From a virus, in IMG/VR virus record IMGVR_UViG_3300024344_000045, positions 1 to 39,776 of that record: a stretch of DNA of 39,776 bases; one strand, 5' to 3'. Positions 5,666 through 13,935 of this stretch are shown in pieces. A model generated the notes under the pieces. It was given only the letters and a program-made list of their open reading frames with translations, was not told where the DNA came from and ran no database searches. Position 1 is the stretch's first letter. The number at the start of each line of letters is the position of its first letter. Both the position numbers and the translations under genes were made by a program.

Positions 5666-5704
5666 TGACGAGTCTAAACTGTTTTTAAGCAAGCAGGGAG
5701 AAAA

Positions 5705-5775
5705 GGCGGCGGCCGGATTTGCACCGGCATGAGGAACTTTTCTAGGGTCCTGCCTGACTATTCGGCCACGCCGCC
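5705..5775 (-). tRNA. tRNA-like element, possibly degenerate
   Basis: On the minus strand a 71-nt cloverleaf can be drawn: a perfect 7-bp acceptor stem (GGCGGCG/CGCCGCC), TG at positions 8-9, a 3-bp D stem (GCC/GGC), and a perfect 5-bp T stem (GCCGG/CCGGC) with 7-nt loop TGCAAAT. The anticodon loop reads best as CTAGAAA, giving anticodon AGA after the conserved T33, but its stem has one C-A mismatch and one G-T pair. The D loop lacks the usual GG, and the T loop has G at the usual T55. No CCA is encoded. It may be a phage tRNA or a decayed relic; the leucine/serine-like D arm suggests Ser, yet the variable arm is short. Confidence 0.5.
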
Positions 5776-5792: not shown

Positions 5793-5824
5793 AGCCCCGT
5801 TGGCTTTGCCGGCGGGGCTTTTTA
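5793..5824 (+). terminator. Rho-independent terminator
   Basis: AGCCCCG (5793-5799) pairs with CGGGGCT (5813-5819), with an inner GGC/GCC stem, followed by a run of five T. It would stop rightward transcripts arriving from the 5206 gene before the Com-like gene. Confidence 0.8.
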
Positions 5825-5936: not shown

Positions 5937-6125
5937 GTGGTTGCATCATTCCCGCTTAATTCAGATAGTCGCGCAAATATTGTGCGTTGTCCGACCTGCA
6001 AAAAGGTTATTTTCGACGGCGAAGTGTTGAAAGCCCCCGTCACGCGCTTTTTTCCCGTCTCTGAATCTCTGTGCAAACGCTGCAAAACCTGGGTTTCGGT
6101 GCCGGTGATCTTATCGACCAGTTGA
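5937..6125 (+). CDS. Com-like zinc-ribbon protein
   Basis: A 62-residue protein with two CxxC knuckles (VRCPTCKKVIFDG and SLCKRCKTWVSV) separated by about 25 residues, the layout of the Mu Com family. Mu Com binds mom mRNA and opens its translation start. The GTG at 5937 gives the longest form; a second in-frame GTG at 5982 starts directly before the first knuckle and would give a 47-residue protein closer to typical Com. No mom-like acyltransferase gene follows: the next item is a terminator 56 bases downstream. The target RNA is therefore unknown. Confidence 0.62.
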   Translation: MVASFPLNSDSRANIVRCPTCKKVIFDGEVLKAPVTRFFPVSESLCKRCKTWVSVPVILSTS

Positions 6126-6180
6126 TTTTTTTATAAAAACGGATTAGTGTTGCGCCAAACCCTAGAGATGGCGCAAGAAA

Positions 6181-6215
6181 GCCCGGTTTCGCGTGAGCGA
6201 TGCCGGGTTTTTTTT
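6181..6215 (+). terminator. Rho-independent terminator
   Basis: CCCGG (6182-6186) pairs with CCGGG (6203-6207) around an inner TCGC-GTGA-GCGA hairpin, followed by eight T. It closes the Com-like transcript and isolates it from the exported-protein cluster. Confidence 0.85.
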
Positions 6216-6232
6216 GGCTTAACGAAATACAC

Positions 6233-6376: not shown

Positions 6377-6907
6377 ATGCTAAAGCGGCTTAGAGTTTCA
6401 TTTTGGCTTTTCTTTATATTGGCCAGCGTTTTATTGCTGACCCTGACCCCGCCGCCGGCTTCGGCGACGTCATTCACCGACGCATTCGAAAATGTTAACG
6501 CGGATCATTTATTTCGCGGTACGTCATTTTCTGAATCGACCCCGGCGAGTTTCTACGTTTCGTTACATATCACGTCGTGCACTGATTCTGCCGTCGGTAC
6601 GGAGGTTAGTGGCGGAAGTTATGCACGGATTGCGGTGGCTCGAAGCCAGGCGGCTTGGAATGGCACGCACGGCACCAACATCGGGGCTAGCTCGGGAACC
6701 AATGGCACAATCAGCAATAACGGCGCCATCGATTTTGCAGCGCCCACCGCCAATTGGGGCTTGATTTCTTCGTTTGGAATCAATAGCGCACTCACCGGCG
6801 GCGTGCAATATGTTTGCGAAGACTTAACGACGCCAAAAACCGTGAACAACGGTGATGCCGCGCCAAGTTTTGCGCCGGCCGCCCTTACCATACAGGTGGA
6901 TAACTAA
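6377..6907 (+). CDS. Exported fibre-module protein
   Basis: A 176-residue protein with an N-terminal Sec signal or anchor (FWLFFILASVLLLTLTPPPASA, cleavage near 31). The remainder is a module I recognise from proteins often annotated as phage tail-fibre or virion decoration proteins: SFTDAFEN..DHLFRGTSF, then FYVSLHI, GTEVSGGSYARIAV, WNGTHGTN, ISNNGAIDF and GLISSFGINSALTGG. The same module, very similar at DNA level, forms the C-terminal 150 residues of the 7454-10963 protein. A signal sequence is odd for a virion part assembled in the cytoplasm, so this may be a surface or secreted factor, or it may be anchored to the inner membrane. Stop and next start overlap (TAATG, 6905-6909). Confidence 0.7.
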   Translation: MLKRLRVSFWLFFILASVLLLTLTPPPASATSFTDAFENVNADHLFRGTSFSESTPASFYVSLHITSCTDSAVGTEVSGGSYARIAVARSQAAWNGTHGTNIGASSGTNGTISNNGAIDFAAPTANWGLISSFGINSALTGGVQYVCEDLTTPKTVNNGDAAPSFAPAALTIQVDN

Positions 6908-7269
6908 TGCGCAACTATCTTATATTGGCATTGATTGCCTTCCTTTTCGGGTGCACGCAGGCGCAAGTCTCTAATAGTTTAAACGCTGCGGCCGTGGCCA
7001 GTAATCAAACCGCATTCGGTACGCTTGCCATCGGTCCGGTCGAAGCGGCCGCCGCGGCGTCTTATACAAAGCTGGCGATGATTCGACACAATGCCGCAAA
7101 ACAGCTCACCGAAAAGGAAATTTCCATTGAGCGCGCCGAATCTATCTTGGCCTGCACGGACAATTGGCGAACGCAGCTGGATTATGCGGTAAATACTGAA
7201 AATGTTGCCGTCATCGGGTTGATTGGGTCTCAAATTAGCTGCGAAACGGGGGTAAACGATGAAGCTTGA
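6907..7269 (+). CDS. Putative lipoprotein
   Basis: A 120-residue protein with a short signal and lipobox (LIALIAFLFGC, Cys16 as the lipidated residue) and Gln at +2 (really C-T-Q), compatible with outer-membrane sorting. The mature part is Ala-rich and helical, with two further Cys (LACTDN, ISCETG) that could form a disulphide. It is larger than a typical Rz1 o-spanin and not Pro-rich, so a spanin role is not supported. Translation is coupled to the exported module protein upstream and overlaps the next small gene by 11 bases. Confidence 0.65.
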   Translation: MRNYLILALIAFLFGCTQAQVSNSLNAAAVASNQTAFGTLAIGPVEAAAAASYTKLAMIRHNAAKQLTEKEISIERAESILACTDNWRTQLDYAVNTENVAVIGLIGSQISCETGVNDEA

Positions 7270-7453: not shown

Positions 7454-10400
7454 ATGATTAGATCGCTCAATAAATATTGGTGTGCTGTTTGGATTTTCCT
7501 ATTGGTTCTTTTTAGTGCGCCGACTCTGGCCACTAACCAACTCGGCTGGAACAGCACGCAGGCGAGCGTTTGGGCTAATCTTAATTCAACTAACCATGCG
7601 ATGTGGGTGCGGCTTAAATCAAAAGCCGATGGCCTGCCGTATGGCGACGTGGGTCTATACGATGCCCTGGTCTATTTGATTACCGGCGACGTCAATTATG
7701 CAAATTCGGCCTATGTTACATTAATCAAGAACTACCGCGGCCGCACCTATAATACCGGCGGCATATCACCCGACCGAGACAGCACGCGACATCAATATGG
7801 GACTTATGTGCTGATGTATAGTTGGATTGCCGACGCCATTTCGCCGACAAATAAGGCGAACTTTCGCGATGTTTTGGACCATTGGTCAGACCTTGTATTT
7901 TCTGCATCGCACGGTACCCGAACCAACGACAGCGATGAAATGGTCGGCCACTATTTTGGGCTAGTCATGCACGCGATGGCAATTCGCGACGAGGATCTAG
8001 CCACATCAAATGCGCTTTTGAATGCCACGCCGGCGTCATGGACGCCGGTTGGCGGACTGGACGCGACCGCCACGGACCGATCGACCTGGCGAAATACAAT
8101 ATCGGAATATGTAATTGATCGAGCCGCCGGAGGTCAGTGGTTAGAAAGCTCCGAATATAATCTGACAACGGCCCGCTATTTGATTGAATATTCGCATATC
8201 ATTAGTGAATTTTGGGGATCGGACAAATTCCCTGAAATTACGGCATGGGTACCCCAAGCGGAGGCTGCTTTAATCAATGAGATGACGCCGGATTTTTTGG
8301 ATTCGTACGAATGGGGGGATGAACAAGGCCCGCATAACATAGGCATTTTTCATCGTGCTGGGCTACTATCGGTCATCGCGTCGATTACCGGTAACCCAAA
8401 TACTTACGATCTATATGATGTGATCTATAGCTACACCGGGTCTTCGTCATTGTGGCCACACTATTTGCCCTATTTAGACCCATCCAAACCGCGATCAAAA
8501 ATATCGGGGCAGACATCGCTCAACGCACATGGCCGGGGTGTCGCGTACCACCATACCGGCTGGAACAATAACGACAGTTTTTTCGGTTCGTATGTTCAAA
8601 ATAAAACCGGGGTAGATCATGAAACCGGCGCAGCGGGTAACTTTGCGCTGTACAGGAATGGTGCTTGGGCCGTTGATGCGCCCCGAGGCTATCAGCTGCA
8701 TTCTTCCTATTACAACACGATGCTCATATCGGGCGGCCTGGATACTGCGGCAGAGGCACGCGGACAATCGGGCTATGCCGCGGGGAATAATTATTTATAC
8801 CACGTCGGCACGACCGGCGGGCAATTTGTCTGGTCTTTTTATTGGGATCCACCCGATGAAACGCTGCACGAATGGACTCGCAGCAATCTTTATTTGCACA
8901 ATGCGGACGGATCGGATTCTATTGTTGTGTTTGACCGGATTAATTCATCCAACCCGCAGACCGATTTAACCGCACAGAATTTTGGCCGCTTTACCTCGTC
9001 GGCGATTCGGGATATCAACAACGCCGCCGCGGCTCACCAATGGGTGATTCACCTACCCAACGCAACGCCAACGATTAACGGTAACGCCATCGAGTGGACC
9101 TCGGCCGGTTCGGAAACAGTTTATTTGCGGTCTTTTCTGTCGTCGCCTTATACGACCGCGGTCTATGACGAATCGGCCTTGCAGGGGGCCAACGGCAATC
9201 CTTACATTGGCGGCACGATCCACCCTACCGAACCAAAATACCAATTGCGTTTGATGCCGACGCAAAAAAAGGGCCACCAAACCCTTTTAAATGTGATCCA
9301 CGCGGGCGGTACTGTGGTGACCACAGAATACGGCGCGTCGGTGGGCGAAAATGCCCGCGCGGTACTGATACAAAATACCAGCGATAGTGCCCTGGCCGTC
9401 TTTAATGGCGACGTCGGCAGCTTGCCGTTTACCGCGAACGGCAACCCGGTGGCGATTCAGCCCTCGCCGGAATCCGGCGGCCGATCCGCTCACGATCCCA
9501 ATCGTTTTAATCTGCAAAAACAATTAAGATTTTTTACGTCCGGCTTTACGTTGACCACCACAACGGCGACGGCTACAACAGCCTACCTTGCAGACTTGGA
9601 CCCCGGTTTGTCGTGGACTATCCAATTGAACGGTGCCGCGCAAGCCGTAACACCCAATTCGGCCGGTTTGGCCATTGTTGCGATGCCGACCAGTGGATCG
9701 AATACCCTGGTCGTTGCCTCTGGGGCACCGCCACCCAATAACCCGCCGATTGCTTCGGTGAACGGTCCGTATACCGGCACAGTGGGCGTCCCGGTGTCGT
9801 TCAGTAGCGCCGGAACGTCCGACCCGGATGGCGATACGCTAACTTACGCGTGGGATTTTGGCGACACTGCCACCAGTACCGCCGCTAATCCGTCGCACAC
9901 CTACTCATCAACCGGACCGTTTACCGTATCTCTGACGGTTGATGACGGCAACGGGGGATCCGACAACGCGCAGACTACCGCGACTATTTCGGTAAATAAC
10001 CCGCCGATTGCTTCGGTGAATGGTCCGTATACCGGCATGGTCGGCGTCCCGGTGTCGTTCAGTAGCGCCGGAACGTCCGACCCGGATGGCCATACGCTAA
10101 CTTACGCGTGGGATTTTGGCGACACGGGTACCAGTACCGCGGCCAACCCATCGCACACCTACTCATCAACCGGACCGTTTACCGTATCGCTGACGGTTGA
10201 TGACGGCAACGGGGGATCCGACAACGCGCAGACTACCGCGACTATTTCGGTAAATAACCCGCCGATTGCTTCGGTGAACGGTCCTTATACCGGCACAGTC
10301 GGCGTCCCGGTATCGTTCAGTAGCGCCGGAACGTCCGACCCGGATGGTGATACGCTAACTTACGCGTGGGATTTTGGCGACACTTTTACCAGTACCGCGG

Positions 10401-10963
10401 CCAACCCATCGCACACCTACATATCAACCGGACCGTTTACCGTATCGCTGACGGTTGATGACGGCAACGGGGGATCCGACAACGCGCAGACTACTGCGAC
10501 TATTTCGGCCGCCGTCCCGCGCGGGTCATTTACCGATGCGTTTGAAAATCTGTTAGTTGACCATGCTTTCAGAGGGATGCTTTTTTCCGCGACCGCACCG
10601 GTCAATTTATACGTTTCTCTACACGTTATGTCGTGCACCGACGCCTTGCCCGGTACTGAAGTGTCCGCCGGCGGGTACGCCCGCGCCGCCATACCCCGCA
10701 GCCAGGCCGCATGGAATGGTACGCACGGAACAAATAGCGGACTAAGTGTTGGAACCAATGGGACAATCAGCAATAATCAAGCGATATTGTTTGGCAGCCC
10801 GTCGGCCGATTGGGGCATGATTTATTCGTTCGGTATCAATAGCGCTCTCACCGGCGGCGTGCAATATGTTTGCGAAGATTTGACAGTACCAAGATCGGTT
10901 AATAACGGCATGTCTGGCCCGCGCTTTCCGGCAAACTCATTAACCATACAGGTGGACGGGTGA
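7454..10963 (+). CDS. Exported polysaccharide lyase-like protein with three PKD domains and a C-terminal fibre module
   Basis: 1169 residues. Residues 1-26 are a Sec signal (WIFLLVLFSAPTLA). Residues about 30-760 resemble the heparinase II/III-type lyases: a helical N-terminal toroid (DSDEMVGHYFGLVMHAMA, ESSEYNLTTARYLIEY, WGDEQGPHNIGIF) and a beta-rich part with V387-D-H...AAGNFALYRNGAWAVDAP and YNTMLISGG. These enzymes cleave uronic-acid polysaccharides by beta-elimination. Residues about 762-1019 are three PKD domains, each with DPDGxTLTYAWDFGDT. Residues about 1020-1169 repeat the fibre module of the 6377 protein. It could be a capsule depolymerase, or an enzyme secreted by the lysogen that borrows a virion module. 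The usual His-x-His of the lyase loop reads HET here, so activity is not assured. Confidence 0.72.
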   Translation: MIRSLNKYWCAVWIFLLVLFSAPTLATNQLGWNSTQASVWANLNSTNHAMWVRLKSKADGLPYGDVGLYDALVYLITGDVNYANSAYVTLIKNYRGRTYNTGGISPDRDSTRHQYGTYVLMYSWIADAISPTNKANFRDVLDHWSDLVFSASHGTRTNDSDEMVGHYFGLVMHAMAIRDEDLATSNALLNATPASWTPVGGLDATATDRSTWRNTISEYVIDRAAGGQWLESSEYNLTTARYLIEYSHIISEFWGSDKFPEITAWVPQAEAALINEMTPDFLDSYEWGDEQGPHNIGIFHRAGLLSVIASITGNPNTYDLYDVIYSYTGSSSLWPHYLPYLDPSKPRSKISGQTSLNAHGRGVAYHHTGWNNNDSFFGSYVQNKTGVDHETGAAGNFALYRNGAWAVDAPRGYQLHSSYYNTMLISGGLDTAAEARGQSGYAAGNNYLYHVGTTGGQFVWSFYWDPPDETLHEWTRSNLYLHNADGSDSIVVFDRINSSNPQTDLTAQNFGRFTSSAIRDINNAAAAHQWVIHLPNATPTINGNAIEWTSAGSETVYLRSFLSSPYTTAVYDESALQGANGNPYIGGTIHPTEPKYQLRLMPTQKKGHQTLLNVIHAGGTVVTTEYGASVGENARAVLIQNTSDSALAVFNGDVGSLPFTANGNPVAIQPSPESGGRSAHDPNRFNLQKQLRFFTSGFTLTTTTATATTAYLADLDPGLSWTIQLNGAAQAVTPNSAGLAIVAMPTSGSNTLVVASGAPPPNNPPIASVNGPYTGTVGVPVSFSSAGTSDPDGDTLTYAWDFGDTATSTAANPSHTYSSTGPFTVSLTVDDGNGGSDNAQTTATISVNNPPIASVNGPYTGMVGVPVSFSSAGTSDPDGHTLTYAWDFGDTGTSTAANPSHTYSSTGPFTVSLTVDDGNGGSDNAQTTATISVNNPPIASVNGPYTGTVGVPVSFSSAGTSDPDGDTLTYAWDFGDTFTSTAANPSHTYISTGPFTVSLTVDDGNGGSDNAQTTATISAAVPRGSFTDAFENLLVDHAFRGMLFSATAPVNLYVSLHVMSCTDALPGTEVSAGGYARAAIPRSQAAWNGTHGTNSGLSVGTNGTISNNQAILFGSPSADWGMIYSFGINSALTGGVQYVCEDLTVPRSVNNGMSGPRFPANSLTIQVDG
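9737..10510 (+). repeat. Three tandem 258-bp PKD-encoding repeats
   Basis: AATAACCCGCCG starts units at 9737, 9995 and 10253, a constant 258-bp (86-codon) period. The units are nearly identical in bases, differing at only a few positions (for example GAT/CAT/GAT in DPDGD/H/D and the codons before ACCAGTACC). That means recent duplication or ongoing homogenisation, and copy number may vary between relatives. Confidence 0.92.
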
Positions 10964-11695: not shown

Positions 11696-13636
11696 ATGCC
11701 GACGCCGGTTGTTGAATCCCTGCAGGCCTCGGGTGGCGACCATAATTCGGTCGCGGGATTCATTGCGATGCTGCAGGCGACTAATTTTGTCACCGCCGAC
11801 GAAATCCGAATCCTAGAATGCCACGACGATTGGCCAAACGGGCTCGATGAAAGAGTTTCTTTTGTTTCGCTTGCGGAGACTCCAACCGCGACTAATTACG
11901 TCGAACTGCGTGCGGCCGCGGGGGCAGAAAACAACGGGCATATCAAACAGGGCTTTTTTTTCGAAATAACTAACGCTTGGTCAGTGGCGTTTATTGTTGG
12001 GATCCCTTATTTAAGGCTGACCGATATTGAAATCGCTGTAAGCGGCTCAAACACAAAAGTAGTGGATTGCCAAAGCGGGAGCAGCCATTTATTAATCGAC
12101 CGGTGTATATCTCGATCGGAGAATACTAACGCCGCCAATATCAGCTTAAAAAATACGGGCAATCGTATAAGGTCGTCGCTGGTTGTCGGTGGGTCTGATG
12201 GTATCAATACTCTCAGTTTGGCGCAGTATGGGGAAATATTCCAAACCGGCATAATTAATGCTGCGACAGGCTTCAACGGCAATACAAATGCCGACGCTAG
12301 AAACGTATTTACCTACGGTTGTACCAATGACTATGCCGGCACCTTTAATGCGGGCAGTACAAACAACGCTACGGATAAGGCGACCGCGGCCAATGTGCCC
12401 GGCGCTAATTCGGTTGTCGGTTTATTGCCTGCCGACTTTATGGACGCAGCGAACGATAACTTTCACTTGTCGGCCGGATCCGCATTGTACGGGGCCGGCA
12501 CCGATCTATCGACCGATGGCGTGCTGCTAGATATTGATCGCAATAGTTTTTTCGCACCCTACCCGATTGGGTTTGATAAAGGTAGCGCCCCCGGCAATCC
12601 TTTGGATGGCTCGGCAACCGGTCAAGCTGGTGCGTCGGCCACGTTGCAAAGCAATATGTCGGTAGCGGGTGATGCGGCTGGCGCCGCCTCGGCCTCTGGA
12701 TCACTTTCGACAGGCATTGAAGTCGATGCGGATGCGGCTGGACAGGCCGTCGCCGGCGGGAGTCTGACCACCGATATTCCGATCGCCAGCGCGGCGGTAA
12801 CGGTGGCCCTTGCGGGCGGTACTTTAACGACCGGCATACCGGCGGAAGGTCACGCCGCGGCGCAAACATCCGCGGCCGGTGGTATGGCGATTTTTACCGA
12901 TATTTCGGGGAATGCCGCCGCCCAAGCATCGGCGCAAGGTGTATTGAATACGCCGGTTGATTTGGAGGGCGCCGCCGCGGCGGTGGTGTCCGCCGGCGGC
13001 GACCTGACAGTAAAAATTGCCCTGGCCGGCGCATCATTAGCGCAAGCCCTTGCAACCGGCATACTAGACGCTGCAGCGTTACTGGACGGCCAAGCGTCTG
13101 CCGAATCTGCTGGGTCGGGTATTTTAACGACACAAATTACCCTATCCGGTCCGGCGCTTATCGACGCATTGGCCCAGGCCAATTTGACCGCACCCGGTAG
13201 CGGGTTTTCCGCCGCCGCCCAAGCCGCGGCGAGCGCATCCGGTGAATTGATTACGCAAATTCCATTGTCGGGTGCCGCAAACGCTTTTGTAGCGGCCAGT
13301 GCCGATTTGGCGACGATCATACCGCTACATTCGGTCGCGGTGATTGCATCCAACGCGACCGGGGGGTTGACCACGCAAATTAGCTTTAATGCGCAAGCCC
13401 TGGCCGCCGCGTTGGCCCAGGCCGATATTATTGTCGCGCCTGGGCTGAACGCCGACGCTTTGGCCGAAGCGTTGTCGGGGGCCAGTTTAACCACACAAAT
13501 ACCGTTGAACGGCGCCGCGTTGGCCCAAGCCGCCGCAAACGGACAATTATCGGATGCCATTGTGATACTTCCTAAACTTGATAAATATATGGTGGTTGGA
13601 CCGCGCCGCCGTTATACCGCAACCGCCCGATCATGA
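11696..13636 (+). CDS. Beta-helix-like fibre protein with long Ala-rich repeat tail
   Basis: 646 residues without a signal peptide. Residues about 40-300 look like a right-handed parallel beta-helix: short repeating turns with Asn and Gly (LRLTDIEIAVSGSNTKVVDC, NISLKNTGNRIRSSLVVGG, FNGNTNADARNVFTYGC) and an end motif ALYGAGTDLSTDG...DIDRN. Residues about 302-630 are about 16 imperfect 20-21-residue repeats of the form (S/T)LTT-I-(P/x)-L...A-A-A-(x)-A-G. The fold fits a receptor- or glycan-binding tail fibre or tailspike-like protein, and the repeat tail may be a stalk. Its stop overlaps the start of the fibre-tail adaptor (ATGA, 13633-13636), which supports a tail-fibre role. No catalytic residues could be assigned. 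Confidence 0.65.
   Translation: MPTPVVESLQASGGDHNSVAGFIAMLQATNFVTADEIRILECHDDWPNGLDERVSFVSLAETPTATNYVELRAAAGAENNGHIKQGFFFEITNAWSVAFIVGIPYLRLTDIEIAVSGSNTKVVDCQSGSSHLLIDRCISRSENTNAANISLKNTGNRIRSSLVVGGSDGINTLSLAQYGEIFQTGIINAATGFNGNTNADARNVFTYGCTNDYAGTFNAGSTNNATDKATAANVPGANSVVGLLPADFMDAANDNFHLSAGSALYGAGTDLSTDGVLLDIDRNSFFAPYPIGFDKGSAPGNPLDGSATGQAGASATLQSNMSVAGDAAGAASASGSLSTGIEVDADAAGQAVAGGSLTTDIPIASAAVTVALAGGTLTTGIPAEGHAAAQTSAAGGMAIFTDISGNAAAQASAQGVLNTPVDLEGAAAAVVSAGGDLTVKIALAGASLAQALATGILDAAALLDGQASAESAGSGILTTQITLSGPALIDALAQANLTAPGSGFSAAAQAAASASGELITQIPLSGAANAFVAASADLATIIPLHSVAVIASNATGGLTTQISFNAQALAAALAQADIIVAPGLNADALAEALSGASLTTQIPLNGAALAQAAANGQLSDAIVILPKLDKYMVVGPRRRYTATARS
12600..13570 (+). repeat. 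Degenerate about 60-bp coding repeats (Ala-rich)
   Basis: The coding repeats of the fibre protein. They show a recurring ACNACNCAAAT(T/A) tract (codons for TTQI) and GCN-rich stretches, with a protein period of about 20-21 residues. Divergence between units is high, so this is an old expansion, unlike the PKD units upstream. Confidence 0.7.
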
Positions 13637-13935
13637 GTACACGCGCTAAACAATTCGACTCCAAGGCCCCGGCAGAAATTGTACCGATTACTTTCGATTT
13701 TTCTGCATTACTGACCAGTATCGATAGCGTTGTCATTTCGGTGCAAATTCGAGTTGGCGCGGATCCTAATGTGGCATCGATGCCCCTGGCCGCGCCAGTG
13801 ATCAATGGGGGCGTTGTGCAACAGCTGATCCAACAGGGCGTTGATGGGGTCGAATATTCGATCCGTGCTGATGCCGTAGCGGGGATGCAAAAATATGCGC
13901 TAAATGGCCATTTACCCGTGATAGAACTGAGTTAA
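13633..13935 (+). CDS. Fibre-tail adaptor-like protein
   Basis: A 100-residue protein starting in the ATGA overlap with the fibre gene. The pattern KQFDSKAPAEIVPITFDFSALL...DSVVISVQIRVG...QQLIQQGVDGVEYSIRADA...LNGHLPVIEL is a small Ig/Fn3-like beta sandwich of the type annotated as phage fibre-tail adaptor, which joins fibre subunits to the tail. It is the last gene before a strong terminator, so the rightward unit from the Com-like gene or 6377 probably ends here. Confidence 0.66.
   Translation: MSTRAKQFDSKAPAEIVPITFDFSALLTSIDSVVISVQIRVGADPNVASMPLAAPVINGGVVQQLIQQGVDGVEYSIRADAVAGMQKYALNGHLPVIELS

Follow-up and report, generated by a model that had tools for sequence, protein, structure and literature searches.

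Predicted exported Gp80 fibre proteins in phages, one of them joined to a lyase-like region and PKD domains

A predicted exported branch of the phage fibre protein Gp80 appears to have arisen and then to have been duplicated onto a lyase-like protein in a single phage. This order of events is drawn from the tree of Gp80 domains and from a related phage (L014) that carries an unexported Gp80 and no lyase. Tail fibres are regarded as parts assembled in the cytoplasm. The fibre I-type proteins of one clade have predicted signal peptides and a new cysteine pair, and one member is fused to a lyase-like region. This points to the passage of fibre-type parts through the host secretion route in some phages, and makes the export of fibre components by phages directly testable. 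The possible sites of such parts are the cell surface, the medium and, after lysis, the virions. The fusion itself is a possible new kind of depolymerase.

The fusion gene and its phage

The DNA stretch analysed here (the window) has 39,776 bases and spans a single IMG/VR virus record. It encodes a portal, a minor head protein, a protease-capsid fusion, a sheath, a DNA-circulation protein, Mu-type baseplate proteins, baseplate J and two integrase-family genes, and derives from a temperate, contractile-tailed phage. The contig is probably incomplete, since no terminase large subunit was recognised in the 39,776 bases. The features of the fusion gene and its neighbours are as follows.

6377 to 6907, + strand: stand-alone Gp80 with its own predicted signal peptide and the same cysteine pair as the fusion (Pfam, E 1.3e-30)
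6907 to 7269, + strand: putative lipoprotein with a LIAFLFGC lipobox-like start (sequence)
7454 to 10963, + strand: predicted exported lyase-like protein that ends in three PKD domains and a Gp80 domain (ORF calls, Pfam, NCBIfam)
7454 to 7531, + strand: Sec-type signal peptide, residues 1-26, with a cleavage-like site between LA and TN (sequence, simple signal rule)
7532 to 9724, + strand: heparinase II/III-like region, residues 27-757 (NCBIfam HepB, cellular relative, motif alignment)
8144 to 8158, + strand: motif residues Glu231/Tyr235 (motif alignment)
8618 to 8620, + strand: motif residue His389 (motif alignment)
9737 to 10510, + strand: three PKD domains, encoded by a 258-bp tandem repeat (Pfam, TRF)
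10529 to 10951, + strand: residues 1026-1166, a Gp80 (GP4 fibre I) domain that has the exported clade's cysteine pair (Pfam)
11696 to 13636, + strand: long repetitive protein, probable fibre (sequence)
13633 to 13935, + strand: Gp77-type fibre-tail adaptor (Pfam PF23148, E 6.2e-6, at its cut-off)

The fusion gene is a single open frame of 1169 codons with an ATG start. Signal peptides were scored by a simple rule (a basic start, a hydrophobic core and a cleavage-like end) rather than by a trained predictor, and the N-terminus of the fusion, MIRSLNKYWCAVWIFLLVLFSAPTLA followed by TN, passes it as a Sec-type signal. PKD_4 (PF18911) matches the protein three times, above the Pfam cut-off (E 1.3e-61). 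The three units appear to be a recent amplification because their 258-bp coding repeats are 94% alike (TRF). The C-terminus matches Gp80 (PF23140) with 92.8 bits against a cut-off of 27 (E 2.7e-26). The Sec signal, the PKD domains and the virion or fibre module proposed in the initial annotation are thus all borne out, the last also by the modelled fold of the upstream paralogue described below. No Shine-Dalgarno-like sequence was obvious by eye before 7454. A small upstream frame stops 12 bases before this position, and translation of the fusion gene may for this reason be coupled to it.

An exported clade of Gp80 proteins

Gp80 is present in 66 viral loci, most of which begin directly with the domain and few with signals. 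The remark in the initial annotation that a phage depolymerase normally has no signal peptide, taken for fibre modules, is true of most Gp80s, but a whole clade with predicted export departs from it. A cysteine pair (SCTD...VCED) is common to seven Gp80s with a signal: the two copies in the window, those of L003, L004 and L011, and two in bacterial contigs, from a Burkholderiales bacterium and Ca. Accumulibacter, which adjoin phage fibre and Gp77 genes. All seven fall in one clade (support 96/91), so that signal and cysteine pair would have arisen as one evolutionary event and not as many. By automated signal calls, the pair occurs in 6 of 11 Gp80s with a signal and in 1 of 46 without (p = 8e-5). 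Three calls were corrected by eye, with the signals of L040 and L046 judged false and that of L070 judged true from an internal ATG, after which the counts are 7 of 10 and 0 of 47. The two rejected signals are hydrophobic stretches that sit inside the domain. Such a pairing of signal and cysteines is the trace that real export to an oxidising compartment would be expected to leave. A search of viral contigs for further exported Gp80s recovered only L003 and the L004 contig again.

Three other signal-bearing Gp80s (L037, L038 and L039) lie outside the main exported clade or belong to another subtype. The signal may have more than one origin, as the cysteines of L037 and L038 are at other positions and L039 has none. 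Two other apparent Gp80 fusions were rejected. The partner annotated as 'cellulase D' corresponds to a stand-alone gene of Gp80 size in Ps15, and the 'baseplate hub + lysozyme' fusion of IME-SM1, one frame there, is two genes in the related Ps15. A gene annotated as 'b-glycanase' over a Gp80 match is 260 aa long.

The stand-alone Gp80 at 6377-6907 scores 106.8 bits against the PF23140 cut-off of 27 and is 68-69% identical to the C-terminus of the fusion. The two are sisters in the tree (support 100/98), with branch lengths of 0.38 for the fusion copy and 0.064 for the other. The C-terminus of the fusion thus appears to be a duplicate of the neighbouring exported Gp80, set onto a lyase-like protein. 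A structure model of the stand-alone copy, built from 25 sequences (pLDDT 81), matches PDB 8jou (8jou_a) with TM 0.70/0.75, and the Gp80 profile matches the same entry at E 2.4e-20; the fold match rests on this copy and not on the fusion copy. The entry is titled 'Fiber I and fiber-tail-adaptor of phage GP4', and in a paper on phage LSH1 its chain g is described as a fibril that joins an adhesin to the tail collar (PMC13243795).

Both window copies are of the GP4 Gp80 family by sequence, the upstream one also by its modelled fold, and a homologue of the Gp77 adaptor is encoded nearby. GP4 Gp80 is a 140-aa virion protein whose domain begins at residue 4, whereas the window copies add a predicted signal peptide and the cysteine pair, and one of them adds the lyase-PKD N-terminus.

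The cassette and its relatives

The putative lipoprotein at 6907-7269 is 33% identical to the product of L004:8502-8870 (E 2e-8). It follows an exported Gp80 in the window and in one other locus only, that of L004. An esterase/lipase-like gene of L004 (6810-7403; PHROG 21992, E 1.2e-25) immediately precedes the region of its exported Gp80 and is a further enzyme near this module. The product of 11696-13636 had no family match in Pfam or PHROGs and resembles the gene that precedes Gp77 in L130 and L135, where the Gp80, fibre and Gp77 genes are placed after the capsid gene.

The portal, minor head and capsid genes of L014 share ~70% DNA identity with those of the window, and L014 has a further packaging-type frame just ahead of its portal. 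Its corresponding slot lacks a lyase; the genes there encode a Gp80 with neither signal nor cysteines, an exported protein of another kind, a fibre-like protein and a small product. Other relatives by capsid protein, L130 and L135 among them, have no Gp80 between the minor head and capsid genes.

A proposed role at lysis, and its alternatives

The reading that we prefer, with slightly less than even confidence, is that the fusion is a Sec-exported and probably polysaccharide-cleaving enzyme, made late, which carries a Gp80 duplicate on a PKD spacer and acts at or after lysis. Architecture, signals, paralogy, the single origin of the exported clade and the neighbours are read from the sequence; from these we infer export itself, the disulfide, the timing and the partner. 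The fusion would be made late in infection alongside virion genes and sent by Sec to the oxidising periplasm, where a disulfide could link the cysteine pair of its Gp80. From lysis onwards it would reach the cell surface or the medium and trim host capsule or matrix glycan. Through its Gp80 module the enzyme would bind whatever the stand-alone exported Gp80 binds, be it the Gp77 adaptor of progeny virions or a glycan or lipoprotein at the surface. This course of events, from late synthesis and export through folding in the periplasm to release when the cell lyses, is the most economical reading. Because the gene lies within the late structural block, where head, tail and fibre genes share one strand, production during lysis is likelier than production by a quiet lysogen.

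The presence of a Gp77 adaptor in the same cassette keeps a role on the virion in view. Here the fusion and the exported Gp80 would dock through Gp80 onto the Gp77 of progeny virions on their way through the periplasm at lysis, and particles would leave with a tethered enzyme. According to its title, 8jou contains fibre I and the fibre-tail adaptor of GP4, Gp80 and Gp77, in one solved structure, and the Gp80 domain of the fusion was retained through duplication. However, the longer branch of this copy may mean that virion contacts have been lost, and contractile phages build their tail parts in the cytoplasm. Docked particles of this kind are rather unlikely. In a fuller proposal, a clade of phages would have shifted a tail-fibre protein to the host Sec pathway, and fibre parts, here including a tethered lyase, would fold and form disulfides in the periplasm and join the virions no earlier than lysis. 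This is unlikely; if true, it would mean that tail appendages are assembled outside the cytoplasm.

The initial annotation suggested that the lysogen may secrete the protein, and the position of the gene lends this no specific support, as its place among virion genes implies late expression. In such a lysogenic conversion, the host cell would secrete or display the enzyme and Gp80 and thereby feed on matrix glycan, alter its surface or block superinfecting phages. Two predicted exported proteins and a lipoprotein are encoded consecutively, a terminator-like hairpin (5793-5819) sets the cassette apart from the upstream head genes, and the phage has two integrase-family genes. Yet the minor head and capsid genes flank the cassette in the same orientation, and promoter matches around it are at shuffle level. 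Conversion is, on balance, unlikely.

The lyase-like region

For residues 27-757, 'lyase-like' is a distant-homology label, weak but consistent and with no clear family match. The label is so worded because the match to HepB (NF045571, heparin/heparan-sulfate lyase) in NCBIfam is far below its cut-off (E 3.5e-4; 18.6 bits against 600), centred on residues ~365-421, and because Pfam gave no match above cut-off to the region. One chance-level Pfam line was returned (E 0.18), and PF07940 had no match at E 1.

The motifs W-x-E-x-x-E-Y235 and H389-x5-G-x-F align with PF07940 proteins in the expected order (GGQWLESSEY against GGWHEGGEY, and HETGAAGNF against HSHLDQGAF), and YYN and then GGQ follow downstream, again in the same order. 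The presumed catalytic Tyr235 and His389, a pair that the initial annotation had marked for checking, thus appear to be kept. The metal-type motif HxHxDxG is not kept and reads HETGAAG in the fusion and HESGVCG in L078; its second His and its Asp are taken by us to be the metal site, from heparinase II. The proposed heparinase II/III-like assignment holds in its Tyr and His motifs, their order and the remote relatives, and falls short in its sub-threshold profile match and replaced metal-site residues.

In a single-sequence profile comparison with PF07940-containing proteins, the fusion alone did no better than shuffles; together with L078 it gave 88%, a value possibly driven by L078. Heparinase II/III-like lyases have an alpha-toroid plus beta-sandwich fold; single-sequence AlphaFold2 of the region gave, at low confidence (pLDDT 31), helices followed by strands only. 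The fusion thus resembles heparinase II/III-like lyases (PF07940; HepB; PL12/PL21 type) in motif order and predicted export and, at this low confidence, in the succession of helices and strands, but differs from them in its sub-threshold similarity and altered metal site.

A cellular relative is L073/L078 in genome G125 (E 1.1e-4), a protein of 1356 aa with BACON repeats after its lyase-like region. A second protein of the same genome, L077, has a sub-threshold match to PF07940 (E 0.01) and combines a signal, a lyase-like region, and InlB-type and CARDB domains. Both resemble the fusion in placing extracellular accessory domains after a lyase-like region, but they are encoded in a bacterial genome and have no fibre module. 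Beyond G125, no relatives of the region were found among 369 genomes of one bacterial class and 399 of its phylum (overlapping draws), nor among phages, plasmids and viral contigs. A 56-residue piece of the region had no match in genome contigs, and no solved structure matched the region by sequence. The two cellular relatives gave only chance matches to solved structures.

The fusion probably cleaves polysaccharide, as far as lyase activity can be inferred from these similarities. Phage capsule depolymerases (tailspikes) would be alike in the presumed cutting of surface glycans. As a rule, though, these are tail-bound trimers of parallel beta-helices and lack a signal peptide. It is also conceivable, if rather improbable, that the N-terminal region has a degenerated heparinase-like fold without catalytic activity and serves to bind glycans or to adhere. 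The replaced His and Asp of HxHxDxG and the lack of a family match above cut-off are in keeping with this, whereas the Tyr and His motifs keep their positions and order, and the cellular relative L078 has the same altered motif.

A misassembly, in which a bacterial lyase-PKD gene was joined to phage DNA through its repeated, 94% alike PKD units, fits the occurrence of the fusion architecture in a single contig but is very improbable because phage genes on both sides and an intact frame would require two false joins, and the C-terminal Gp80 is a 68-69% paralogue rather than a copy.

Further observations around the cassette

In the window, 2042-2718, between the portal and minor head genes, encodes two small proteins with signal-like N-termini, which an exported protein at L014:2861-3235 resembles. 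Other inserted genes lie between the portal and minor head genes at L128:4303-6383 and L130:5191-6830, and L128:4806-6383 looks like a beta-helix-type spike protein. This interval looks like a site at which accessory genes insert.

ARAGORN calls a tRNA-Ser at 5704-5775, within the late region but on the opposite (-) strand and beside the strong terminator-like hairpin at 5793-5819; Rfam has no tRNA at this position, and L014 has a tRNA call at the same place. The intervals 6000-6220 of the window and L014:7569-7890, both ahead of the Gp80 gene, each contain a small frame with a zinc finger, similar to phage Mu Com (CPTCKKVIFDG...CKTWVSVPV). After the frame comes a non-coding stretch conserved between the two phages, made up of AAACCCTAG and a hairpin like that of a terminator, which may be a small RNA or an attenuator.
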